Below are positions 997 through 18,292 of a stretch of 21,022 bases of DNA, piece by piece. Origin of the DNA: Stramenopiles sp. TOSAG23-3 (taxonomy: Eukaryota; Sar). The DNA is taken from positions 1 through 21,022 of the forward strand of contig LT642364.1 of the NCBI GenBank assembly GCA_900128585.1. Reading direction: 5' to 3'. A program made the position numbers and the translations under genes. How positions within the stretch are numbered: position 1 is the stretch's first letter; each line of letters starts with the position of its first letter. The notes under the pieces are model-generated. The model saw only the letters and a program-made list of their open reading frames with translations. It was not told the DNA's origin and made no database searches.

Positions 997-2739
997 TTAA
1001 ATTGCTAGTTTGTGCAATGCTTCTTCCATTCCTTGATGCCTTTTTGATTTTTTCAGGTTAATCTCCGCATATTTCCCCGCGTTCTTCATTAGTTCGGTTC
1101 TTGTCAAAGGCCTATCATCGTCCATCATAGCATCTGGCATAGGCCCATAGTCTTCAAATTTCGGCGGTTCAATTTTTAATTCTACCGTGCCACTTGGAAC
1201 AGTTGGGCCGTCTCCCATGGGTAAAATATCACTAACCCCTACGTTCTCGGTGCTGTGATCTGCAGCGATTCCCTGTTTTCCTCCAACGTCGCTTCCGTGG
1301 GACTGTACCGTTGCGTAATACATTTGCAAAATTTCGTTTGTGCGCTGCTCAATCACCCCCAAGTATTGCATTAAGTTCCCGTCTGTAATCCCGTGACTAC
1401 TATGCAGAACACCCACGTTGCCCATGCTTTTGCAGCCGATAGAATCGTACACCGTCAATACCTGGTTTTTGATTTCGCTCAAGACGTAGGTAGCGTCTTT
1501 GTGCCTAGCATCGTAATCTTTCACTCGTGCTTCCGTTCGCGCCAAACGCGTCTCTAATTCCCTCAGAATTTTCTTCCGCTGGGTATTATTCTCATTGTCT
1601 TGTCCACGGTATTTTTCAATTTCATTCTTGACTTCACCAATGGAAATGTCCAGCTTTTCCAACTCCTCATTCAAGTGGTTTACATAATTGAACATGCTGA
1701 AGTTTTTCTCTTCCGCCGCTATGAACTTGTCCACCAACACGTGAATGTCATTTATTCCCGTGGTCGCCAATATTTTTGCAAACGCTTCCTCGTACGCTGT
1801 TATACGCTCCTGAGACAGGGCCAAGTGCGCCTTTTCTTTCGCAATTTTCCACGCCCCCGAAAGCACTTTGCGCCTGAGCCGTTGCTCTTCTCCTGCTGCT
1901 ACTTGCCGCAAACTCTCTTGCTCCTCCTCTGCTTTTTGTCGATCCAACTCTCGCTTCCTGGCATCTCTCCCCCCGGTCTCCAACGATATGGCATTCCCCA
2001 ATCGTGCCCACTCTGTCTCGAATGATTTTTGTTCATCTGTCATAACAGTCTTCAGCTCGTCCAGTTCTTGCAGCAGAGAATCTCGAATTTCATACGCTTC
2101 GTTGGAATCTGCAATAATTTTTGCCATTTTCCTCTTCTTCCCTGCCAATTCCTGCTCCAGTTTTTTGTACACTGCATCGTACACCATTCGCTGCCGTCTG
2201 CTTTCGTTGATTTCCTCCCTTAGGGATTTGTTACGGGACAGACTCTCGTTGTATTTGATCATGGACTGGTCCAGTTTGTTTTCTAATACTTTCAAGCGCT
2301 TATTGACCGCAATCTGGTTTTCTCGCGCAGCATTTATACCGCCCATCTTCTTCCTTTGGTCGGAAGACTTGGCAAGCAGCGTATCAATTTTCTCCTGCAA
2401 ATCGTCAATTTTTCTTTTTTCGATTTCAATTTTTCTGGTAAACATGTCCCCTTGATCTTGTAATTTTGCGATGAGGTCGACAGGTTTCCGCCGTTGCTTC
2501 GAAGGTGACTTCCCCCCTTCGTTTCCCCCCTTTTTCGAGCTAGTCTTTTGCCCTGGTTTTGACACGGTAGTGTTGAGTGCCTGCTTTAGATTCTGATTCC
2601 TCTTCTTCAAGTCGTTCAAGTCATTTTTCTTGTCTTGCAGTCTGCCATCGTTTGCTTTTAACGCGGCCAAGACAGAATTTATATTCTGTGCAGCGTCTTT
2701 CGTTGCCGTGGCGTTCGTGGCAGTAGCAAAATTCTCCAT
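997..2739 (-). CDS. ODA1: Outer dynein arm docking complex coiled-coil subunit (ODA1/ODAD1/CCDC114-like)
   Basis: This protein would help anchor outer dynein arms to axonemal doublet microtubules; Chlamydomonas ODA1 (DC2) and animal ODAD1/CCDC114 are the reference family. The ORF is 580 residues, intronless, with an ATG at 2739. Chlamydomonas ODA1 is, from memory, close to 550. It is almost entirely helical and charged. A low-complexity Lys/Gly/Ser linker lies at about 61-86. Family-like blocks follow: LQDQGDMFTRKIEIEKRK (about 93-110), MGGINAARENQIAVNKRLKV (132-151) running into VLENKLDQSMIKYNESL (151-167), and REEINESRRQRM (174-185). Next come FETEWARL (240-247), GAWKIAKEKA (295-304), FIAAEEKNFSMFNYVNHLNE (339-358) and YLGVIEQRTNEILQMYYA (459-476). 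The last block is a family hallmark. The tail (about 480-580) is less conserved but contains DDRPLTRTEL. Confidence is high for the family; orthology to ODA1 rather than the paralogue CCDC63 is inferred. Its presence implies a motile flagellum. Confidence 0.9.
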   Translation of the reverse strand: MENFATATNATATKDAAQNINSVLAALKANDGRLQDKKNDLNDLKKRNQNLKQALNTTVSKPGQKTSSKKGGNEGGKSPSKQRRKPVDLIAKLQDQGDMFTRKIEIEKRKIDDLQEKIDTLLAKSSDQRKKMGGINAARENQIAVNKRLKVLENKLDQSMIKYNESLSRNKSLREEINESRRQRMVYDAVYKKLEQELAGKKRKMAKIIADSNEAYEIRDSLLQELDELKTVMTDEQKSFETEWARLGNAISLETGGRDARKRELDRQKAEEEQESLRQVAAGEEQRLRRKVLSGAWKIAKEKAHLALSQERITAYEEAFAKILATTGINDIHVLVDKFIAAEEKNFSMFNYVNHLNEELEKLDISIGEVKNEIEKYRGQDNENNTQRKKILRELETRLARTEARVKDYDARHKDATYVLSEIKNQVLTVYDSIGCKSMGNVGVLHSSHGITDGNLMQYLGVIEQRTNEILQMYYATVQSHGSDVGGKQGIAADHSTENVGVSDILPMGDGPTVPSGTVELKIEPPKFEDYGPMPDAMMDDDRPLTRTELMKNAGKYAEINLKKSKRHQGMEEALHKLAI

Positions 2740-4221
2740 GATTTAGTGTACTATACAATGTGGGGTGGGTTGGAAGAAACAAGCCAACAAAAAATAAATA
2801 CCACCTAATATCACTCACAGGTTGTGGTTGCGCACGTCACACGTTCAACGTATTACCGGCAGGCCCTCGACGCTGAGCAGAAAACTTCTAATCCTTCTAC
2901 TTGTGCAACCCCAACAGCAAACACTATGTATTGTATTCTTACGTCACCTGTTAAAGATTACCATTCAATTGAATTAAGTATTTCTTCAGAACAATGAAAT
3001 GAACCTTTTTCTTTCTTCAATTTTTGAATGTGCGTTTCTTTCTTTTTTTCTTCTTTGTTGATATACTGATGATGATGATTGAATAATAATTATATATAAT
3101 AATAATATTCTTCTATTTTTTTTTTATTATTATTATAATGTAGTTTTGTGGTGTTGTCCAGCAGCAGAGGATGATGGTATTTTACTTCAATTTTTGTTTT
3201 ACCGGTAGGTAAAAAAGGCACCCGAACCCGTGCTGCATAACGGTTTTTCAAAGTCTAATAAAATATAGAATAAAAAAGAGAGTTCTAAATTGGAATAATT
3301 GCAATTATAGTTATATAGGAAGTAAACAAAAGTAGTACAAATATCCCTATTACTAATTCCAATACATGCACACAGTATAATATTTCCTTCCACAATTTTT
3401 TTCATCGTCGCTTTGTTTATTTTGCCTGCCTTCCTTTGCTGTTGCTTGTTCCATTCTAAAGCTTTTTACAGTTTTACTAAAAGCTTTCTTGTGCCACTTA
3501 TTATTACGCTCGTAGGCTACGAGTACGTATTTATTAAAAAAACGTTCAGAAAATAGAAACCAACTGGGTGCTATGTAGAAATACATTAATGAAGGACATG
3601 GAGAGAGTGTTGCTAGACTATATAAATTTGTGTGGATGAGAAGAGCGAGTTGTATTTATTCCCTTCGTCATTATTGCTTTATTCCTTTCTATTATTAAGG
3701 ATAATTTATTTTATTGTTACTGATCACTTTGTGATAAATAAGTATTTAATATAATTAATATAAAATATGAATTATTAGAAATAGAAATATATTATTATCC
3801 TTAAAATAAAAAGTAAATTTGCGATTCTTTTATTATTTTTAGATTAAAAAATCTTGTCTTCTTCTTTTTCTTTGAAGAAGAAGAAATACGAGGAGTATTT
3901 AATACGGGGTTTTACCGGCGTTGGTTAATAATAAATAGTTAACTAAATAAATATTAATTAAAAAAAAATGTATAATAAAATATAATTAACAACAACAACA
4001 AAATCATCATCTTCTTCTTCTCGTCGACGATCGTTTCTATTTTATTATTATTAATTAAAATTGAAACAAGTTTCTCCTACTTGAACGAATGAAAAGAATG
4101 CGTTTCAAGCTGATAAAATGTTTTATATGATCTCTGTTTCGTAGAACCAACGTACCATCGGTGCAAAATACTACGTTGAGAGAAATTCATACTGTTCGCT
4201 TTAGTGTTTTTTGTACAAAAT
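2740..4221. other. Divergent AT-rich spacer
   Basis: No convincing gene is visible. Open frames at 3199-3586 on the minus strand are low-complexity and lack family features. Two ACGTCAC words sit at 2834-2840 and 2941-2947, about 100 and 200 nt upstream of the ODA1 start (GTGACGT on its strand). A TATATAAA lies near 3619. Small hairpins are visible, for example TTTTACC/GGTAAAA at 3197-3214. Tracts of TTA, GAT and TTC triplets fill much of the rest. Promoters of both flanking genes must lie here, but none can be fixed. Confidence 0.6.
3988..4029. repeat. Chain of trinucleotide microsatellites
   Basis: Consecutive short triplet runs follow each other without a gap: AAC x4, AAA, ATC x3, TTC x3, TCG x2, ACG. 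Each run differs from the next by one or two bases. It lies about 190 nt upstream of the tail-anchored protein gene. Confidence 0.7.
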
Positions 4222-6136: not shown

Positions 6137-7411
6137 TCACTGCTTCGTTTCCGTTTTTTCGACCCTCTTTTTTCGTCTTTGGGATACCGAATTGTAATCA
6201 GTTTCATAGTAGTAGTCAAACCAAGTAAAGAAAGGCTGAAAATTACACATCGGCAGTTCGTGGTGTCGATCGTGGTGAACTGTGCCACCCCAAATGGAGC
6301 GCCCTTTGAAACAAACAATTTTGTCCAGAAAGCCAAAATCGTACCCAGTGTGTGCTTCTACACTAAGTTGGACTGCAAGCACAAGCCAGACCCACTCTGT
6401 CAATGGGTGGCACCCAACGCAGATGGGGATTGCCATGCTAAAAAGTGCCACGGCCATAAGCTCAAGAAAATGTTCATATTGTGTCACCCACACAAATGGT
6501 GCATGGTATTCGTGGTGAATACGGTGGATGTAGCGATACAGGGGCCGGGAAAGGTGGTGGAAACGGTGCCAATAGTGGTACGATAAATCAAACACTAAAA
6601 GGCACACCGTCAGATCCACCATAAACTCGCAATTCGAAGGGGCACTGTTTGGGAAAAGGACGTTTCCATCGCAGTGAAGCAAACAAATTCTATTAGATAT
6701 CAAAAATTGGGACAAAGCTTCTTCTCCGGACCCTTCCGTTGCATTTGTCTGTTTATGGTTGCCCCAATGCTCATGGGAGTAATACATCCAAGGGCCTCGC
6801 ATAATAACTTGGTACACCATTCCTGGAACAGCAAAGATAAAATTGTTTCTTAGCGAATGCAAAAGTGTATCGCACACCTGGTGGCGGACTAAATTCCCAG
6901 GAACCTTCCGTTCCGAGCTCGTCCTTTGTATTTTGTACGGTTTCGCAAAGTCCGGCTGAAAAATGTGCAGCAGCGCACCAGGCACACACGCGACGAAATA
7001 GAACATGGACGACAACGCCCCTGGAAATACAGGGGCATTGACGAACGCTACAAACGGCCCATCTTTTGTCATGTAGTCCCAGATGTAACTTAGCCCCGTC
7101 GCCGACATTGTCCCTGGTGCTAGGGACTGCCCAGAAAAAAGGAACTGGCGCTTCAACTTTCGCACGAATACGCCGAAAACAACTATGCCTACCAAGATGG
7201 TCAAAGTCAGAGCAAGGGACGCAATCATGGCTCCCGTGGCAACAGGCATACCGATGCACCCAGAATAATATTTGATGTAAAACGGATCAGTGCTCTTTTT
7301 GACGCCATCGTTCTTACCAGAAACATGTGACTGCAACAGAGTTTTCGATTTTCTGGTGGAGCTACTACGCAGCTTCCTCTTCACCAGGGCCGCTTTCGTC
7401 GAGGTTCCCAT
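6137..7411 (-). CDS. Membrane sterol desaturase / fatty-acid hydroxylase superfamily enzyme
   Basis: The family comprises di-iron membrane oxygenases of the ER, including C-4 sterol methyl oxidase (ERG25/SMO), C-5 sterol desaturase and fatty-acid hydroxylases. I took ATG 7411 (MGTSTKAALVKRK), since the frame extends only to a GTG four codons earlier; the product is 424 residues. Three histidine clusters are intact: HYWHRFHH (about 278-285), HRIHHEYH (about 294-301) and HHDRHHE (about 379-385). QYEHFLE sits where sterol methyl oxidases have a Y-x-HP-x-E motif. This gives the HX3H, HX2HH, HX2HH ligands expected for iron. An N-terminal extension of about 130 residues carries a strong hydrophobic helix (about 56-83), making the protein longer than a typical 270-300-residue SMO. 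Several further hydrophobic segments precede the His boxes. The basic tail (RRKKRVEKTETKQ) is probably cytosolic. The exact substrate cannot be read from the sequence; a sterol is a reasonable guess, not shown. Confidence 0.85.
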   Translation of the reverse strand: MGTSTKAALVKRKLRSSSTRKSKTLLQSHVSGKNDGVKKSTDPFYIKYYSGCIGMPVATGAMIASLALTLTILVGIVVFGVFVRKLKRQFLFSGQSLAPGTMSATGLSYIWDYMTKDGPFVAFVNAPVFPGALSSMFYFVACVPGALLHIFQPDFAKPYKIQRTSSERKVPGNLVRHQVCDTLLHSLRNNFIFAVPGMVYQVIMRGPWMYYSHEHWGNHKQTNATEGSGEEALSQFLISNRICLLHCDGNVLFPNSAPSNCEFMVDLTVCLLVFDLSYHYWHRFHHLSRPLYRYIHRIHHEYHAPFVWVTQYEHFLELMAVALFSMAIPICVGCHPLTEWVWLVLAVQLSVEAHTGYDFGFLDKIVCFKGRSIWGGTVHHDRHHELPMCNFQPFFTWFDYYYETDYNSVSQRRKKRVEKTETKQ

Positions 7412-7984
7412 AACGAAAAACACTACGATAAAGGATACGCAGAGATTACTTTTGGAATCGATACAGTGGTAACAACGTCTATAAAGAAACCTCCTTCGTG
7501 TAGCACAACTTAACTACATTGCAATAAAAGTGACAATGCTTTCAATGCGACTTGCAGTTGCTTCTTGTTTCCACATTCTTTCCTTTTTCTTCGTAGTATT
7601 TTATTTGAGTCATTATTATTATATAATAAAAAATTATTATTTTATATTATTAAAAAACACCACAACTTCTTGAAGATGGTGTGTTGCTGTTCTTTGCGGT
7701 GCCCTTTCCAAACTAACAAAAGGAATAACAGGAAAACAGCATTAAAAAAACTTAACGACCATTACTCGTCCTCCTCTATTTTTTTAAATCCAGCTTGTGT
7801 GCCTATATTCTTTGTAGTAATTTGTCATCAAACAATGTAGAATGTTATATTTAAAAAATAAATCAACCAAAGCAAAAAATTGGGATTAAAGAGGAAAGGA
7901 AAAAGGAAGAAGGAAGAAGGAAGAAGAGAAAGTCATCAGAAAAAAAAAAGAAGAACGAAAGATTTATTTGATTTATATTATAAT

Positions 7985-9580: not shown

Positions 9581-12500
9581 TCAATTCTCAATTGCCGAAT
9601 ATACAGGGGACGCCTGGCGCTTACAGTAAGCTTTATTCTTCGCCCTGGCGGCAATTTCATCGTCGTCTTCGATGACAACGTAAGCGGTATACTCTTTTCC
9701 CACCAACACGTCCCCTCCAGGTAAAAATAAGGAAAGTTTGAAAACTTCTTGAAACGCTTCTGGGCAGAAATCATCGATGGCGAAAAGGCGAATAGCACTG
9801 TCTTTCTGCCCTGGACCCCATGTAATTGTACCCGACTGTTCCACGTAGTCCCCGCATTCGCCACGTTCGCTTTTGTAGTATTTCATACATATTTCGTAAT
9901 CTGCTGGAGGGGTGCCGGTTGCTGTTATATCAGAGGTGGCATATTTCAGAGAAAGCGATTTAGACAAGTCTCCTATTCTGTCAATATAAACGTCGATAAA
10001 GTTTGGATCGTTCTCATTGCTGAATTCTTGGATGACCCACTTCTGTTTTCGAAACCGTACAAGATCAATACGAAGGTTAAAATACGCAACGGAACCTACT
10101 TGCTTATAAACTTCAGAGTAAGTTGCCGGTTCCTTCGGGGCCCCGGCAAACGCTTCATACCCTACCAAAGCAACAGAAAACCCCAAGTGATCACGGTCAA
10201 GCTTTGCGGGAGACTGTGTTTTCAGTTTCTCCGTGACGTTCCATTTGCTTGCTTCCGTCAGGCGGCCGTCACCAGCACGAGATTCTGGCCAACGGGTAAA
10301 TAAATAAATAGAACCAGACCGCCACGGTTGGTCGTCCGCGCGAAAACCCATGATGCGACCCACTTTCGGGTTGTTTGGATTGCTGGGGAAGTTGGTCTTC
10401 TCCGTGTTTGGCGTGAAACCTCCCGTGTGTGCCCAATCGGTTTGTAATCTTCCCGACCGACTGTTTCGATTGAATAGATCCACTATACGACCCCCCGGCG
10501 CACCGACAAGAACGATGCCAGCCCCGAAATCAATAGCTACATCGTTTCCGAACATATCATTTTCGCGCTTGTCGGAGGCTTGGAATTTTTGTTCCTCGTA
10601 CCAGTAACACTGCCATCGATCAATGTCCTGGACTTCCCCACCCCACCCTTCCGAATAGCCGTTAAAAAAACACCCGTTTGAATCACAAAACTGTTGACAC
10701 AGCTCAGGGACAGTTAGCCCATTGATGTCCTCCGTTCTCGCTTTTGAGACTCTACGATAAACATATGCGGCCCCAGATGATTCCCCGTAGTGGTGCCCGC
10801 ACTGCCCATGACTACAAGGCTCTATGTTACCGGCACCACCATTTGTGGCTGGATTGTTATCCCAGTCAAATTGAAAATCATCTACGTTTATATGGGCCCA
10901 AAGCATTGTACTCATGTCCACGATTCGGATTTGACCAATTTTTCCTATCCACTCCCCAACGTTCCACGTAACTCTATGCATCGTTTCCGTGCATTTTCCT
11001 GTGACACGATATACGGGTATGGCAGCCGTTCCTGTGTCAAAACCCCCCAACAAGGGAGACTTATAATTAGGGAAATACCCAGACTCACCATCAACAAACA
11101 GTTCCACCCACACTTCGTTTATTCGGCATCCTCCTCCGACCAGAAACGAAATTTCTGTCCCTCCAATCATGAAAGGGTCGGACGTCAAGGTTCCAGTAGG
11201 GATGTCGCCTTGTACGTTCCCAATGGCAGTATTGTTGTCGTGTCTTTTCTCGTACGTACCTATCCAGTACTTGCCTCGCTTCCCACTCCTTTGGCTAGGG
11301 TTTCCTTTGTAAGCAAAGGTCGGCAATCGGATGGACTCTGTATACGTATACTCAGCTTCTCCCGCAGGATCTCTGACGCTGTCAGCTACTCCACCCGAGG
11401 TCTGGTACATTCGGGTTCCTTCGCCAGTGTATTGTTTTCTCGTATAATACGTGGTATCTTCGCCCGCCATGACCGTGTGACCATACACATCTCGCCCCAT
11501 GGTATTGTCTCCCAGCGTTGGTTGATAGTCAAACGCATCTCCCGTCTTGTGCCAGCCTACCAAATTACCTGTTTCGAAATCCCATGTTGAGCGAGCCTTC
11601 ATATCCTCATTTGGAGCACCAATCACCAAATAATCCTGATCAATGGCTATGCTGCTCCCAAAATTATCTTGGGCTTGTTTATCTTTGGCTTGCAATTCAG
11701 TTTGGAGCTCCCACATCCCCGACGTAACATTGATGAGATATTGATACACAATACCACGTCCATGGAAACCTTTCTCTGTCGGCCGCCCACCGCCATCATT
11801 GGTGTTGGAACTAAAAGAATTTTTTGTGGCGTAATCATCAGCGTACGTTTGATGAGAGTGGTCTGCTTTGGGCGCGCCAACAAGTAGTGTATCGGACCAC
11901 ATTGCGACTGCCGCTCCGTAGTCCTTGTGATTACGGTATGCCGTACGTAAAATTACAGTCTCGTTATAATCTTGCCGGATGCGCTGCCAACGGACCCACG
12001 AAGTGCCATTGAACTTGTAAATGAACACAGCCTCTGCACCTTTCGCTCCTACGACTATCCAGTTGTTCCATACAGCCACTGCATTTCTATCCCCATACCG
12101 ATCCATCGTGTCCAGTTCGCTCCACGAAAGTTTTTCTTCCATTAACCACTTACTTGAATTTGTGTTATACCTGTATACAAATGCGCACGATAACCCAGGG
12201 GTTCCTACAACCATCGTTTTGTTGTGTAGACTAACTGAAGTTCCAAAGAAGATGTTACTCTGGTTGTACCCGGTGGGGCAGGTCACTACCTGCACCTTCG
12301 TCCACATGCCAGTGGATTCCGTTTTTTCGTACATATGCACTTCGCCAACTTTGCTGTGAGTCATATTCCCCACTGCAGCGCCAGCATACGGCATACCGAC
12401 CGCTAAGATTACGTCCCCACTGTCTTCAATCAACTCAGGGCGATACATTCCCGGGGTAGGCTTCCGAGCTGAACTGCCTACCGCTGACACACTGTACCCA

Positions 12501-15500
12501 AACTTCTGGTGCCCAATAGCACCCGGTGATGATTCGAAAAGGTCAAAGTAGGTTTCTGCGCCTATACCACCGTCTCCATCGTCCTCAACGGTTACATCAG
12601 ACCACAAGTTTCCACCATAGGATGGCTGAAACCCTGGAGCAAGGAGGCGCACGTTAAACATTTCATTGGGGCTTTCGTAAACGTGATCATCGGTTATTAT
12701 GACCTCGACCTGAATCTGTGAGTCATTTTTAGGATAATTCAACGCGCCGTAGTGTGGCGCATAGTCCGATAGCCCGAGTGGATCGTAAGCAGCGGGCTGC
12801 GTGACTTTTCCGCTTGACGGTAACCACAAACATTCTTGTGACCCAGCACTCCGTCGCAGACAGTCCCCACGCCCTGTTGCCGAACTGGCGCAACCACGGG
12901 CTGATGAACATGTTTTATCACCTCGCAAAATTAATTTCGGTTCTACCAAAATCTTTTGGAGCCCAGTAGACAAGCCATCCCCAATTTGGTATTCAAACGG
13001 CAGATCGTACGAGTTGTCCCCATAATGGCATTTTGGAGAACATCTCAGGACAGTAATGTTGTGCTTCCCCCCACCGATAGAGGATTCACTGAACGCATAC
13101 GATCGGTGTTCGAACTTCAGGGATAAAAAATTTAAATTAAACATAAACGCTGCACCGGCGTTGTTCCCTGAGAATAAAGTGTCTCGGTTAGCAGCTGATA
13201 TTATTGCAAACGTTCCTCGTACGCCAATTTGATGCGCGCCGAACAAGTCAGATCCTTGGTGAGACCCTGGGTTTAGTACCCCCTGTTCCGTCCACGACTT
13301 ATATTGGGCATCGCGAGTGAAAATTACAGTCCCTTTGCGCATGTTTAACATAGGTGTGCTGAGAGTCTTAACCCTCACTTGCACCCTGCTGCCAGTTAGT
13401 GAATCGGACCGTGCCCCAAGGGGGGGCACGACCGTAGGGTCATGCTCCTGAAATGTTATTCTCCACGTGTAACCTCCAAAACTGTCCGGACCGATTCTGT
13501 CTACAGACAACTTCCCGGTCCCCAATTCATTTTGCATTTGGTCGCGAAGCGCACTGGCAGCAATATCATAAGGAAGTCTAGTTGTTTTTACAACACGATA
13601 TTTTTTACGGTGGTCAGAGGATTCATCGAGCCAGTTAATTCTCCGAATGCGGTCTCGCGTTACATCAGGTTCCCAAAGGCCATTTTCATATTGTATACCG
13701 TATGTTCCATCAGTGTTCGCAACTGACTTCGGGGACCGAGTAACTCGCCCAGGGTACCATCTTTCAGCCAGCACGTTCACCGGAGTTCGACTGAGAAAAC
13801 CGGTGCCAACAGCACCAAAGCGTGCTTCGACGCGGGTCCCCACAGGAATTATATCAAGCTCACTACCGGTTGCAAAATGGCCGGGGGAAGGCCTCACAAA
13901 CTGCTGTACGCGCCATGTCACATAAAAGTGTCCACCAATCGCAGAATTTGCAGTGACTGTCACAGCCTGTACACTTTTTCGTATCCGCCAATTGAAAGCC
14001 GGAAATTCTTCATGGTACGAAGCAATGAGGGTGTTTAACTCGACGCCCACGGTTATACCAAAGCGATCTGCGCCTTCAAAATCGTTCGGTTTAAGCTGAC
14101 TGTGTTTGTAAAACAACTGGCCAACGTTTGTTCGTTCGAAAACGACCACAGCTCCCTCTGCGCTGGATGCTCCATCTCGGTAGGGTGCGCCAACGACGAG
14201 GGTATTTTCGTGAATGGACAACGTATACCCAAATGCATCTCCAATATGACTTGATACATCACTTATGATTTGCTCCGGAAGAAAATTCCCCCCTGGACTA
14301 TTTCGTTTGTAAACATAGACTTCGCCTTGGTTGAGTTCCCTCAACTTTTTTGTTTTTGGATAACCACCTACTATTAGGGTGTTCCCTTGTAACGCAAGAC
14401 TGTACCCAAACTGCAACCCCTGGTACTTCTGGGTACTGTAATAGCACCCCAAACCGCATTCGTGGTCCAAGAAGCCGAGTTTCTGAAGTTCCTTCCAGGA
14501 CCCGTCAGATTTGTAAAAATGGTAAACCGCTCCAGCCCCGTCACCATCTCGATCATCCTCTAATGCTGTCGCGACGAGGGTATCTCCGCGCAGAATGACC
14601 TTCCCACCAAATTCATCCCCGGGCTGACCACCGGAGGGCATTATCTTTGTTTCCTCATTCCATGCACCGTTAGCATTGCGTTTAAACGTGTAAACGGCCC
14701 CAGTTTGAAAGTTATCCAAGCCTTGGGCCAACTGAACATCAACTATCTTAATTGAACCGGGGGAAGCCTCCGTAGCCGTATCCAGTTTTGGAAAATATAA
14801 GGGCGCCACATTGGCGGTGAGTTGTTGAATGGAAGTCAGACTTTCCTTTATGTTGGGACTAGAAATACGAATCGTGAACGTCGTTGGCGCACTTTCGTTG
14901 CAAAACAAAAGCGGCATCACTGTGGAATCTATCTCGTTATCGGAATTGACTGCTACAACTCGCCCAAGAGAAGAAATTGCGGACAGCCCTTGCAGCAGGT
15001 CTGACAGAGTGCACGTCGAAGCATCAAATGGGGCTGTAGTTTGACCTTGATAACTTAAAGTGAAGTAGCCCTTCGACGCACTGCACTCAAGAGACTTTTT
15101 TGATGCCTGTCCATAATTTTCAGCCCCGGGGGCTCCTACTGCCACTGTGTCCACACTGACGGACACGCTAGTCCCAAACTGGTCGTATGAATCGGTGTCA
15201 TGCCCAAGAAGCTTAAATTCTTGCGGCCAGCGTTCTTCTACGCGCGTGAAGACGTAAGCCGCGCCCGCACGGCGACCGTGATTGCCTTTTCTAGCTCTCC
15301 TTTCAACATCGAGATGTAGAGACGGAGACGTGGTATCCTTGATATTTAAATTGTCTTCATCTGAAAGGTCGCTCGTTGAAAACACTTCGTGGACTCTGAC
15401 CGTAGCGTCTATCCCGGTCAACATCGTTTCATTCGCGACCAGCGGGGCTAAGTTTCCAACAGTATCTTCCAAGAAACTATATTGTTTCAGATCTAGGTCG

Positions 15501-18292
15501 TCTATGAACGGGTACACGCTGCTGTCCAGGCCTGCTACTTTATTAAACACTATCGTCCATGAAAACCCGCCTGCAAAATTCATATCTCTCCGCTCCACGT
15601 TTACTTCAGAAATACTCTGCAAAGCCTCCAACGCGGCTTTCATGTCCGATGCAGAAGCATTCCATTGAATAGGAGAGGTTGTCGTTGCCCACTGCCCATA
15701 CGTAAGGTGGCGCTTTACATCTTCTCTAAACGACAACCGAAAGGTTCCCCCAAGAGGTGCTCTCCCCGGTTTTATCGTGGTCGAAATAAGTTTAGCGCCA
15801 TAGCCACCGAGGGTGGATCCATCAGAAATGACCAAGGGGGGATTATAGTATGCTTGCGTTGCAATATAGGTAATGGACCAGACAAATCCGAGTTGATTAT
15901 TTGGGCCAGATCTAGTCACTCGGACGTCTGTAAAATTCCATAATTCCGCCTTGAATATATTCTCGACGTATTCGGCGGTTGCATCAAATGGTATGGGTGA
16001 ACTAGTTACAGCAGGTTGGGCGACATTATTGTTGTAACCGTCATGAATAATCGGGGGGAATGACAGACGAAAATAGTCTGACAATGTGGTGGAGTCTTGT
16101 TGGCGCTTTACTGAGGATGCCAGGTAACTCCCAGTAACGTTCATTACAGAATCATCGAAAATTAAAATTGGCAAGAATCCTTTTGCACTCCGAAACGTGA
16201 TTTTCCAATTGTAGCCGCCCTCGCAGCCACAATCTACGTTTGGGGATCTGGTGGCGTCTATCCACCCAACATCAACGGACTTCAAATCTTCTTGCATGAT
16301 GATTGCGAGTTGTGTAGCGGACACATCTGCTTCCATTAAGCGGGTGGTAACGTTTCTCCACCTTAATTTAAACATTGGGATATTGTCCCCGTACCCTACA
16401 ACAGGTTTTCTAAGCAGAGACGTCTTTGGAATCCCAATAGTTTGTATGACTTGTATTTCATTTCTGTGCCAAGCCGATGAGGATACTGTTTGGACCTCGG
16501 AAACATAAATACTAGACGTTCCCTCCGTCTGCACGACTTGAATTTCATCAAGAGCTCGATCCTCGTATGGTGCACCTACGACTGCCATATCTTTTAGACT
16601 TGAATTTACATCATCGACCAATTGAATGTCGTTGGAAAACCCAAAACGATCATTGGGCTGTTTGTCATTGCTGCTCAATTGGAACTCTGTCGCGTAACGA
16701 ACTGCGACAAATTGCGACACCTCAAACGTTGGGTCGACGCTTGTCGTGTACTTGATACCATATCCTTCTCCATGCTTTTCAATGGCCAAGTTTTGAAAAG
16801 TTGCAATCCCCAAGTCATACTTCGCTGTTTTCACCCCCAAAAGTGGATACCCTGTGGGATTAATGTACAGAGTGGCTGTGACAATGTTTGTACTATCGGT
16901 TACAACTATGTTTTCACCACCATCGAGAAGGGCAACAATGGGTTGGTTTTGAAACGGAGTACCACCTGCCCACGCATCCGAAGCTGCTTGTAGCAATTTA
17001 AGTGATTTTGGCACTCCCAGCAAAACATTAAACGACGGGGAAAGATTAAAAATAGAGCCCGTCCATTGATATGGGTTAGGAAATAGTGGGTCGGCCGTGG
17101 CGGTATATTTCAGTTGGTACAGCGGGCCGACTTTGTCAATGAGCATGCCATCAAATTGTGCGACACCTGCGTAAACTGGTACAGTTAGCCTAAACCCTTT
17201 GCATTTTTGGAGGGCCGAGTCATATATGCAACCTGGCTTTTGGTTACAGTTCGCATACGCCCCATCATACATTGTGCACGCAGTCAAATTCGAGACGTCC
17301 AGTCGCCCAGCGGACGGGTTGATATGAATGGACACTTCTATTGTACTGGTAAAGTCTTCTACCAATAGGTTCCCACCACTGTCCAGCAGATTTAGAACAG
17401 GGGCCGTAGAAAAATTGAAAGTTTTGCCGGCGATAACAAAGCTCGGATGCCGTGCCACTTCCACTACAACAGCCTTGCCAACACCGACAGTCATTTTAAC
17501 TTGATCTATGTAATTCGCTTGCCCGTTGGTATCAAAAATAGGGTGGTCTACTGAAAACCGTAAAGCATACGGGAACCCTGCAATGTCAATTTTTAACCCA
17601 ATGAACGTGGCAACTCCATTTGTCATCTTCGCATAAAACCCGGCAGCTCCCAAGGTTGACGTGAGCGTACCGTTTTTTGGCTGGTTCGCTGGACGCGATA
17701 TCATCTCTACCAATGCTGATGTAGTGGAGTCAGTAATGACGGTATTGTAACCACGGTCGGCAACTCTGACACGTGGTTGTGGAATAAACGGTTCCCCCCC
17801 ACGAGCAGTCCCGGGTGGCTGCTCAAACAGCACCGTGTGGACAGGGCCAAGTAAAATATTGAACGCGCCTGACTCTATTTGTTTACCTAAGTCTATAGAC
17901 ACAAAATTCAACGTAAAGCCACTTCCGAGCATTGTTATGTACAACCCAGAAAAAGTCGCAATCCCTTTTTCAAAAGTTACCTCCGCGTAAGGCCTGGGGG
18001 GATCAAACGGCTCTCCCTTGGAAGTCCCAGTTACATTATACGCATTGACCCCAGCATATATCGCTGGATTGTTTTTAATTTCTACAAAAATTCTCGACGC
18101 GCTATCTTCTGCACAAGGCAATCCTGATGTATTGAGCTGTTGAACGATGGGCTGAGTTAATAAAGGATCCCCACCGTACCCATTTCCAGGCTGCGTAGTC
18201 ACTTGAAGAGTGTTCGGAAAGCACACCGCAGCGTTCCCCCCCGTGCAGCTCCAAACCGATACCAACGCCACCACGAAAACCCTCAAATACAT
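9581..18292 (-). CDS. Giant secreted protein with twin FG-GAP propellers, Calx-beta domains and nested inserts
   Basis: The product is 2903 residues, intronless, starting at ATG 18292. A signal peptide (about 1-22) is followed by four Ig-like repeats (about 26-535) of the form GG-x-PF-x-x-QP-x-V...D-x-G-x-N...DST. An FG-GAP propeller with seven blade starts follows at about 548, 1038, 1223, 1293, 1351, 1408 and 1682. The first Calx-beta domain is at about 1712-1908. A second propeller has seven blade starts at about 1927, 2012, 2062, 2124, 2208, 2578 and 2699. The last Calx-beta domain is at about 2740-2885. Inserts sit between a blade's VGAP and GAVYVF strands: five W-x-I-T-F beta modules in the first propeller, and a levanase-C-terminal-like beta-sandwich (about 2236-2480) in the second. 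A Cys-rich insert lies at about 2522-2570. There is no C-terminal membrane segment, so it is probably secreted or wall-bound. FG-GAP blades bind Ca2+ in integrin alpha (DDRDGDGAGA near 1244). Adhesion or a surface scaffold is inferred; no catalytic motif is seen. Confidence 0.88.
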   Translation of the reverse strand: MYLRVFVVALVSVWSCTGGNAAVCFPNTLQVTTQPGNGYGGDPLLTQPIVQQLNTSGLPCAEDSASRIFVEIKNNPAIYAGVNAYNVTGTSKGEPFDPPRPYAEVTFEKGIATFSGLYITMLGSGFTLNFVSIDLGKQIESGAFNILLGPVHTVLFEQPPGTARGGEPFIPQPRVRVADRGYNTVITDSTTSALVEMISRPANQPKNGTLTSTLGAAGFYAKMTNGVATFIGLKIDIAGFPYALRFSVDHPIFDTNGQANYIDQVKMTVGVGKAVVVEVARHPSFVIAGKTFNFSTAPVLNLLDSGGNLLVEDFTSTIEVSIHINPSAGRLDVSNLTACTMYDGAYANCNQKPGCIYDSALQKCKGFRLTVPVYAGVAQFDGMLIDKVGPLYQLKYTATADPLFPNPYQWTGSIFNLSPSFNVLLGVPKSLKLLQAASDAWAGGTPFQNQPIVALLDGGENIVVTDSTNIVTATLYINPTGYPLLGVKTAKYDLGIATFQNLAIEKHGEGYGIKYTTSVDPTFEVSQFVAVRYATEFQLSSNDKQPNDRFGFSNDIQLVDDVNSSLKDMAVVGAPYEDRALDEIQVVQTEGTSSIYVSEVQTVSSSAWHRNEIQVIQTIGIPKTSLLRKPVVGYGDNIPMFKLRWRNVTTRLMEADVSATQLAIIMQEDLKSVDVGWIDATRSPNVDCGCEGGYNWKITFRSAKGFLPILIFDDSVMNVTGSYLASSVKRQQDSTTLSDYFRLSFPPIIHDGYNNNVAQPAVTSSPIPFDATAEYVENIFKAELWNFTDVRVTRSGPNNQLGFVWSITYIATQAYYNPPLVISDGSTLGGYGAKLISTTIKPGRAPLGGTFRLSFREDVKRHLTYGQWATTTSPIQWNASASDMKAALEALQSISEVNVERRDMNFAGGFSWTIVFNKVAGLDSSVYPFIDDLDLKQYSFLEDTVGNLAPLVANETMLTGIDATVRVHEVFSTSDLSDEDNLNIKDTTSPSLHLDVERRARKGNHGRRAGAAYVFTRVEERWPQEFKLLGHDTDSYDQFGTSVSVSVDTVAVGAPGAENYGQASKKSLECSASKGYFTLSYQGQTTAPFDASTCTLSDLLQGLSAISSLGRVVAVNSDNEIDSTVMPLLFCNESAPTTFTIRISSPNIKESLTSIQQLTANVAPLYFPKLDTATEASPGSIKIVDVQLAQGLDNFQTGAVYTFKRNANGAWNEETKIMPSGGQPGDEFGGKVILRGDTLVATALEDDRDGDGAGAVYHFYKSDGSWKELQKLGFLDHECGLGCYYSTQKYQGLQFGYSLALQGNTLIVGGYPKTKKLRELNQGEVYVYKRNSPGGNFLPEQIISDVSSHIGDAFGYTLSIHENTLVVGAPYRDGASSAEGAVVVFERTNVGQLFYKHSQLKPNDFEGADRFGITVGVELNTLIASYHEEFPAFNWRIRKSVQAVTVTANSAIGGHFYVTWRVQQFVRPSPGHFATGSELDIIPVGTRVEARFGAVGTGFLSRTPVNVLAERWYPGRVTRSPKSVANTDGTYGIQYENGLWEPDVTRDRIRRINWLDESSDHRKKYRVVKTTRLPYDIAASALRDQMQNELGTGKLSVDRIGPDSFGGYTWRITFQEHDPTVVPPLGARSDSLTGSRVQVRVKTLSTPMLNMRKGTVIFTRDAQYKSWTEQGVLNPGSHQGSDLFGAHQIGVRGTFAIISAANRDTLFSGNNAGAAFMFNLNFLSLKFEHRSYAFSESSIGGGKHNITVLRCSPKCHYGDNSYDLPFEYQIGDGLSTGLQKILVEPKLILRGDKTCSSARGCASSATGRGDCLRRSAGSQECLWLPSSGKVTQPAAYDPLGLSDYAPHYGALNYPKNDSQIQVEVIITDDHVYESPNEMFNVRLLAPGFQPSYGGNLWSDVTVEDDGDGGIGAETYFDLFESSPGAIGHQKFGYSVSAVGSSARKPTPGMYRPELIEDSGDVILAVGMPYAGAAVGNMTHSKVGEVHMYEKTESTGMWTKVQVVTCPTGYNQSNIFFGTSVSLHNKTMVVGTPGLSCAFVYRYNTNSSKWLMEEKLSWSELDTMDRYGDRNAVAVWNNWIVVGAKGAEAVFIYKFNGTSWVRWQRIRQDYNETVILRTAYRNHKDYGAAVAMWSDTLLVGAPKADHSHQTYADDYATKNSFSSNTNDGGGRPTEKGFHGRGIVYQYLINVTSGMWELQTELQAKDKQAQDNFGSSIAIDQDYLVIGAPNEDMKARSTWDFETGNLVGWHKTGDAFDYQPTLGDNTMGRDVYGHTVMAGEDTTYYTRKQYTGEGTRMYQTSGGVADSVRDPAGEAEYTYTESIRLPTFAYKGNPSQRSGKRGKYWIGTYEKRHDNNTAIGNVQGDIPTGTLTSDPFMIGGTEISFLVGGGCRINEVWVELFVDGESGYFPNYKSPLLGGFDTGTAAIPVYRVTGKCTETMHRVTWNVGEWIGKIGQIRIVDMSTMLWAHINVDDFQFDWDNNPATNGGAGNIEPCSHGQCGHHYGESSGAAYVYRRVSKARTEDINGLTVPELCQQFCDSNGCFFNGYSEGWGGEVQDIDRWQCYWYEEQKFQASDKRENDMFGNDVAIDFGAGIVLVGAPGGRIVDLFNRNSRSGRLQTDWAHTGGFTPNTEKTNFPSNPNNPKVGRIMGFRADDQPWRSGSIYLFTRWPESRAGDGRLTEASKWNVTEKLKTQSPAKLDRDHLGFSVALVGYEAFAGAPKEPATYSEVYKQVGSVAYFNLRIDLVRFRKQKWVIQEFSNENDPNFIDVYIDRIGDLSKSLSLKYATSDITATGTPPADYEICMKYYKSERGECGDYVEQSGTITWGPGQKDSAIRLFAIDDFCPEAFQEVFKLSLFLPGGDVLVGKEYTAYVVIEDDDEIAARAKNKAYCKRQASPVYSAIEN
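13390..13970 (-). other. Nested module: Tudor/SH3-like insert within a beta module within an FG-GAP blade
   Basis: These bases encode residues about 1441-1634. A beta module begins GGHFYVTWRV and resumes at PYDIAASALRDQM...GGYTWRITF. Between the halves lies a Tudor-like segment (about 1478-1551): GTRVEARFG, WYPGRVTR, DGTYGIQYENGLWE, then RIRRI. The whole lies between LNTLIAS and KGTVIFTRD of the sixth blade. Confidence 0.65.

Follow-up and report, generated by a model that had tools for sequence, protein, structure and literature searches.

The window analysed here, a 21,022-nucleotide contig from a stramenopile draft genome (660 contigs, 12.9 Mb), carries eukaryotic genes, among them one at 9581..18292 on the reverse strand encoding a protein of 2903 residues in a single open reading frame, with an ATG start and no need of an intron (all its features given below lie on the same strand). 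The proteins P0002 (2897 residues, 99.6% identity) and P0003 (matching residues 2193–2903 with full identity) represent this very gene, or nearly so. Neighbouring genes on the reverse strand encode an ODAD1 outer-arm-dynein docking protein (997..2739, Pfam E 5e-57) and a fatty acid hydroxylase (6137..7423, E 9e-18), and the GC content of positions 3001–4000 is 26.7%, with the remaining kilobases of the window at 34–49%. No second copy of the gene was found in the draft genome, where the second half of the protein matched itself and, weakly, C530 (E 5.6e-4). Hydropathy predicted a signal-peptide-like N-terminus (residues 1–22; 18227..18292), with hydrophobic 19-residue windows starting at residues 5–7 only, and indicated no membrane segment after that N-terminus, nor any after the second Calx-beta domain. 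The ensuing N-terminal region (residues 23–530; 16703..18226) is repeated, as judged from shifted BLAST matches; it aligned out of register with its relatives, had no Pfam match and looked Ig-like by eye.

Two blocks of FG-GAP blades follow, block 1 at residues 535–1722 (13127..16690) and block 2 at residues 1913–2747 (10052..12556), both including inserts. The FG-GAP_2 family of Pfam (PF14312) matched the protein with E 3.3e-72 and 238.9 bits as compared to a cut-off of 23, in 11 stretches at E 10 and six at E 0.01, and was present in all 13 members that we scanned with Pfam from the protein family presented below. By motif, the blades start at residues 550, 1039, 1228, 1295, 1354, 1411 and 1684 in block 1 and at residues 1931, 2016, 2066, 2125, 2211, 2581 and 2693 in block 2. 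The first-pass annotation of this DNA had counted seven starts per block of a repeating FG...VGAP unit, a number upheld by these positions together with two AlphaFold models; the unit itself proved less regular than had been proposed, block 2 having LG in place of FG in its final blade and block 1 lacking GAP in several of its blades, and Pfam alone therefore detects at most 11 of the 14 blades. All 14 blade profiles matched each other with HHalign probabilities of 80–99%.

The AlphaFold models, built on alignments of 23 sequences, covered block 1 (mean pLDDT 77.9, pTM 0.56) and the stretch from Calx-beta domain 1 through block 2 to Calx-beta domain 2 (mean pLDDT 67.9, pTM 0.74). Reading the strand lists of both models, we found seven blades in each block, as in integrin-type seven-bladed propellers and in agreement with the blade number first suggested, each blade having strands A (FG), B (GAP), C (GAVYVF) and D, with the D strand of blade 7 modelled as supplied from before blade 1, as it is in integrins. 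Foldseek gave integrin alpha as the best match for both models (E 1.1e-7 and 1.1e-13), and integrins were the only family among the 50 structure matches listed for each block, those 50 being taken from a re-ranking of Foldseek's top 1000, outside which other families may still match. For block 1, Foldseek also returned sialidases and DDB1 propellers, at E-values weaker than those of the best integrins, and at the level of sequence profiles the match to integrin alpha-6 was weak (E 0.0016). The models and the Foldseek matches support the integrin-type fold that had been proposed, and we consider it well supported that both blocks are predicted seven-bladed propellers of the integrin-alpha fold.

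Large inserts were placed by the models between strands B and C of the blades. In block 1 they follow strand B of blade 1 (residues 579–1006; 15275..16558), blade 2 (residues 1060–1194; 14711..15115) and blade 6 (residues 1431–1650; 13343..14002), and they hold five copies of one domain, three in blade 1 (residues 637–742, 743–845 and 846–970), a fourth in blade 2 and a fifth in blade 6, the latter interrupted by a Tudor-like stretch. These five copies matched pairwise by profile with probabilities of 96–99.5% over 70–85 columns, and no Pfam family was over its cut-off in the block 1 inserts; the copies of this unnamed domain lie at 15383..16384, 14711..15115 and 13343..14002. In block 2, we found a short insert in blade 4 (residues 2146–2175; 11768..11857), a module in blade 5 (residues 2235–2477; 10862..11590) and an insert in blade 6 delimited from the model and the blade starts (residues 2604–2657; 10322..10483), and in P0012 (an oomycete) and P0024 (a brown alga) blade 4 of block 2 carries a further copy of the block 1 insert domain. 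Among 35 clean proteins of the family with 7 + 7 blades, the gaps between blade starts exceeded 95 residues in all 35 for blades 1–2, 2–3 and 6–7 of block 1 and 5–6 of block 2, in 30 for blades 4–5 and in 26 for blades 6–7 of block 2, and in at most one for every other gap. To call the architecture exactly repeated, as had been done, is too strong, for the inserts differ between block 1 and block 2.

The insert domain matched by profile the repeats of the Mycobacteriophage Bxb1 tail tip cage protein gp23 (9d93), with E 3.9e-9 over the whole sequence and weak scores for single repeats; gp23 was also listed by Foldseek for block 1, and of three insert pieces compared with PHROGs, two had weak tail-protein matches (E 0.0034 and 0.15). 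Here, unlike in gp23, the domain serves as an insert inside propeller blades. The Tudor-like stretch (residues 1482–1541; 13670..13849; Pfam Tudor_5, E 4.6e-5) scored 23.6 bits, below its cut-off of 31, and was found at E 0.01 in two of the 13 proteins scanned, that of the window included, so that we place it outside the core plan; it forms an insert inside an insert of a propeller blade, in a probably secreted protein.

The module in blade 5 of block 2 has many invariant columns, was present in all 60 proteins of the first search that had been chosen by Calx-beta domain 1 alone, and precedes exactly two blades in 64 of the 67 family members; AlphaFold confidence over it was low (pLDDT about 30–82). 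It has bacterial relatives with identities up to 46%, among the best 80 kept of 363 matched stretches, of which 335 were confirmed. Four bacterial open reading frames were read, and the module stood nearly alone behind a signal-like start in two (deltaproteobacterial), the other two being planctomycete proteins with the module in their N-terminal part; it is moreover repeated in six GH32-type proteins (P0099, P0101, P0116, P0117, P0120 and P0123). Neither Pfam nor NCBIfam gave a family for it, a profile search of the PDB yielded no solved relative, and within its own draft genome it matched itself only. It is a widespread bacterial domain without a Pfam or NCBIfam name, represented by 10862..11590 of the window and by the loci L017 and L021. 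An initial assignment by eye to a CBM66-like domain was not supported, there being no match in Pfam, the PDB or NCBIfam; that the module may bind glycans is our guess from the company it keeps.

For delineation of the family, a protein search with the 2903-residue sequence returned 100 proteins and a second search with residues 2193–2903 returned 35, with scores for only those candidates that shared most words. Selecting for blades, Calx-beta domain 1 and the blade 5 module, we obtained 67 members from both searches, the presence of the module in all 67 being a matter of selection and not a result. Exactly 7 + 7 blades were found in 41 of these, and the other 26 comprise 14 that lack one blade, several of the 26 being partial sequences. 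The blade profile was trained on 23 family sequences including the window's own, with 20 of the 35 clean 7 + 7 proteins in the training set; of seven new members outside it, six had 14 blades and a partial diatom record had 13. Organism names were attached to 12 of the 67 members, 11 being stramenopiles (Hondaea, Pythium, three Aphanomyces, Achlya, Albugo, Cafeteria, Scytosiphon, a pelagophyte and, as a partial record, Conticribra weissflogii) and one a dinoflagellate, Durusdinium; lineages were looked up for Hondaea and Conticribra, and it is on these 12 names that we speak of a stramenopile family. The Durusdinium record, P0010, is named glycosyl hydrolase ecdE, has 59% identity to the protein of the labyrinthulid Hondaea and may be a contamination.

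Six other members were looked at by hydropathy, and in the sequences as given a signal-like start was seen in four and absent in two, with a hydrophobic window elsewhere in four (P0004, P0012, P0024 and P0027). Further Pfam matches at E 0.01 in the 13 members scanned were YHYH in three and Tudor_5 in two, and nothing else. Among the non-family proteins of the first search, 29 of 38 had a multiple of seven blades and 11 had exactly 14, so that twin seven-bladed propellers as such are not new. Judged from sequence, the protein belongs to a family that is old, apparently of stramenopiles and made up of very large, probably secreted proteins.

Each block is followed by a domain of the Calx-beta type, as had been annotated and as supported here by Pfam for domain 2 and by profile match for domain 1. 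Domain 1 (residues 1722–1912; 12557..13129) has a cysteine-containing insert and domain 2 (residues 2743–2890; 9623..10066) lies near the C-terminus. The Pfam family PF03160 matched the whole protein with E 5.6e-9, in three stretches at E 10 and none that alone reached 0.01. When searched on its own, domain 2 scored 30.9 bits, over the cut-off of 27, and domain 1 scored 20.3 bits (E 5.7e-4), under it, probably because of the long cysteine-containing insert; domain 1 is therefore termed Calx-beta-like and not, by score, a member of PF03160. The profiles of the two domains matched with a probability of 98% over 130 columns, and that of domain 2 matched the solved exchanger domain CBD1 with E 3e-7. 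Since repeats of another Calx protein, P0070, matched the domain 2 profile equally well as did domain 1, a special closeness of domains 1 and 2 is not established.

The acidic residues of these domains are presumably calcium ligands, in roles that we take from exchanger structures. Conservation in domain 1 was complete for D1869, E1873 and E1877 (67/67), nearly so for D1843 (66/67) and high for D1907 (61/67), D1904 (60/67) and E1736 (60/67, with seven gaps), D1905 (40/67) and D1868 (27/67) being variable. In domain 2, found in 58 members, the corresponding counts were 55 for D2876 and D2878, 53 for D2815 and E2756, 52 for D2841, 49 for E2845, 45 for D2877 and 38 for D2840, and the commonest residues at the position of Q2848 were not acidic. 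The acidic residues expected to bind calcium in PF03160 domains are thus largely retained, most being near invariant and some variable. Of the 58 members with domain 2, 51 end within 25 residues of it, and it is absent after the module in nine of the 67, some of the sequences being partial in either count. Domains of the Na/Ca exchangers (3ead, 3e9t and 2qvk) share with ours the profile match, the fold match and most of the acidic residues, and differ in that the context here looks secreted and both domains have a cysteine-containing insert before a DY motif.

The first-pass annotation had derived the two halves from duplication of an ancestral propeller-plus-Calx-beta unit, a proposal that the analysis did not establish, and the outcome named there as refuting it occurred in part, the blocks resembling each other no more than they resemble other FG-GAP proteins. 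BLAST of block 1 gave about 41 bits against block 2 as compared to up to 119 bits against a non-family FG-GAP protein, and the mean identity of aligned blades was 30.7% between blocks versus 33.2–33.4% to non-family propellers, where all identities concern proteins retrieved by resemblance to the 2903-residue protein and cover part of each blade, as family blade portions outside the profile read as gaps. Pairing the blades in register was the best of seven shifts by profile score, without significance (425 or 323 of 5040 permutations reached that score), and by blade identity another shift was better. The two blocks stood together, apart from the rest, in 5% of 200 bootstrap trees; a tree holding them together was not rejected by the AU test (p-AU 0.594), its likelihood being slightly higher. 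Concatenated-blade trees of nine family members, among them an oomycete, a brown alga and Cafeteria, placed all block 1 propellers in one clade and all block 2 propellers in another (100/99 each), these not being sisters, and with such separate clades both blocks predate the split of the lineages of the nine. The trees used nine of 18 prepared family members and one propeller from each of 34 non-family proteins (the quick tree) or 33 (the careful tree, omitting P0091 with its long branch), these 34 having likewise been retrieved by resemblance to our protein; they were drawn from a prepared set of 71 non-family propellers from 37 proteins, which excluded clusters with blade counts not divisible by seven. 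Duplication of a propeller-plus-Calx-beta unit is possible and, if it happened, it was older than the split of the lineages in the tree.

With integrin alpha heads (PDB 9t3y, 8xfg, 3v4v and others) the protein has in common the seven-bladed propeller, the N-terminal strand closing the last blade and an Ig-like domain next in order, and it differs in having two propellers per chain, Calx-beta in place of the thigh and, within block 1, another domain inserted five times, as well as in having neither a calcium loop between FG and GAP nor a membrane segment. In integrin alpha, according to PMC3192720, three or four of the blades have a DxDxDG calcium loop between FG and GAP, and on reading the 14 blades we found none at that place, the sole DxDxDG of the protein being at residue 1247, after GAP of blade 3. 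In 29-residue windows counted from FG, which may reach past GAP, the motif occurred in 6 of 895 family and 14 of 1016 non-family cases. The integrin thigh domain (PF08441) was absent from the Pfam list of the protein at E 10; searches of the draft genome for PF08441 and for integrin beta (PF00362) were silent, as were their controls, and carry no weight either way.

Tandem FG-GAP_2 proteins with blades in sevens (P0039, P0058, P0065 and others, those with names being bacterial) differ from the present family in having blades of about 56 residues with few inserts, and neither the blade 5 module nor paired Calx-beta domains at these places; tandem integrin-type seven-bladed propellers are also described from bacteria in PMC3192720. 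From a stramenopile, the same source describes an Ectocarpus integrin-alpha-like protein that, by this published description, shares the seven FG-GAP blades and has a single propeller, in which all four of the human alpha-V calcium motifs occur, as compared to two propellers here.

We read the protein as a whole as a calcium-stabilised, bivalent, secreted matrix or adhesion protein with its inserts as binders, to which we assign a probability of roughly 55%. Secretion is suggested by the signal-like start, the lack of any other hydrophobic segment in the 2903 residues and, in most members, the end soon after Calx-beta domain 2, and the protein would then leave the cell. Going by their residues, the Calx-beta domains would be extracellular binders of Ca2+ that make the junction behind each propeller more rigid. 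In integrins, the propeller face that carries ligands includes the loop after strand B, and the inserts in that loop may project from this face and bind, the probable targets being glycans or partner matrix proteins. Two heads per chain would make a bivalent protein that links surfaces or builds matrix, its action resembling that of two secreted integrin heads although the protein itself is no integrin.

Among other readings, a true integrin alpha subunit or its direct derivative, paired with a beta subunit, would agree with the structural match of both blocks to integrin heads and with some block 2 matches reaching over Calx-beta domain 2 and the Ig-like thigh domain, but the lack of DxDxDG between FG and GAP, of a thigh domain in Pfam and of a membrane segment, as well as blades of the FG-GAP_2 type common to bacteria, make it very improbable. 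Hardly to be expected, either, is an enzyme, as the name of P0010 would have it: the blade 5 module does occur in GH32 proteins, but it is also nearly free-standing in bacteria, and the Pfam matches of the protein and of the 13 members include no catalytic family, the name ecdE probably having been transferred from the shared module. A feeding role, in which a phagotrophic or osmotrophic cell would bind bacteria or polymers before uptake, could explain why a large protein of many domains looks secreted and contains a module otherwise known from carbohydrate-active proteins of bacteria, and several named relatives are heterotrophs; the photosynthetic relatives (diatom, brown alga and pelagophyte) speak against it and we find it rather unlikely.

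The protein might instead belong to the stramenopile flagellar surface, for example in its tubular hairs (mastigonemes) or in the coat of gametes or zoospores. The named relatives are oomycetes, a labyrinthulid, Cafeteria, a brown alga, a pelagophyte and a centric diatom, whose groups mostly have flagellated stages, and with the ODAD1 gene in the window the cell itself is probably flagellated. PMC11412368 supports such stages in part, but it also records a loss of mastigonemes in diatoms, and the gene is present in a diatom. Known mastigoneme proteins are furthermore of the SIG1/EGF type according to PMC12223298, PMC3652789 and PMC3879662, and the word Calx is absent from the main texts of these three and of PMC7409359 and PMC12618581, all on flagella, zoospores or gametes, so that a place on the flagellum also seems improbable to us, and a secreted, bivalent matrix or adhesion protein remains our preferred reading.

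The suggestion that this architecture might be undescribed is consistent with the open-access papers searched, in which we found no account of it. A 2011 survey of 47 unicellular eukaryote genomes reported no seven-repeat integrin-type propeller, with a motif that included the metazoan calcium site (PMC3192720), and its main text does not contain the word Calx. An integrin head fold occurring twice per protein and without the metazoan calcium site in many stramenopiles is a well-delimited and conserved candidate component of adhesion or matrix in that group, the repeated insertion of one domain at the same propeller loop is a clear case of its kind, and the constant insert map makes members recognisable among records named hypothetical, Calx-beta-containing or glycosyl hydrolase. 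More speculatively, and with considerable doubt, the last common ancestor of stramenopiles may have secreted a protein in which two heads of integrin fold were combined with two calcium joints. Its parts would be of bacterial type (FG-GAP_2 propellers, the module known from secreted proteins of bacteria and from GH32 proteins, and a domain like that of phage tail tips), and it would still be basic to the cell surface or flagellar hairs of living stramenopiles, adding a third use of the integrin head to those in animal integrins and in the propellers of bacteria.

Two further loci of the same draft genome carry related domains. One (L004, C422:2025-2324) gave a Calx-beta match within an open frame of 11,683 residues. 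The other (L096, positions 61–2784, on C116) is an open reading frame of 907 residues with FG-GAP repeats in which integrin-type calcium loops are retained, and by eye it resembles a GPI-specific phospholipase D.
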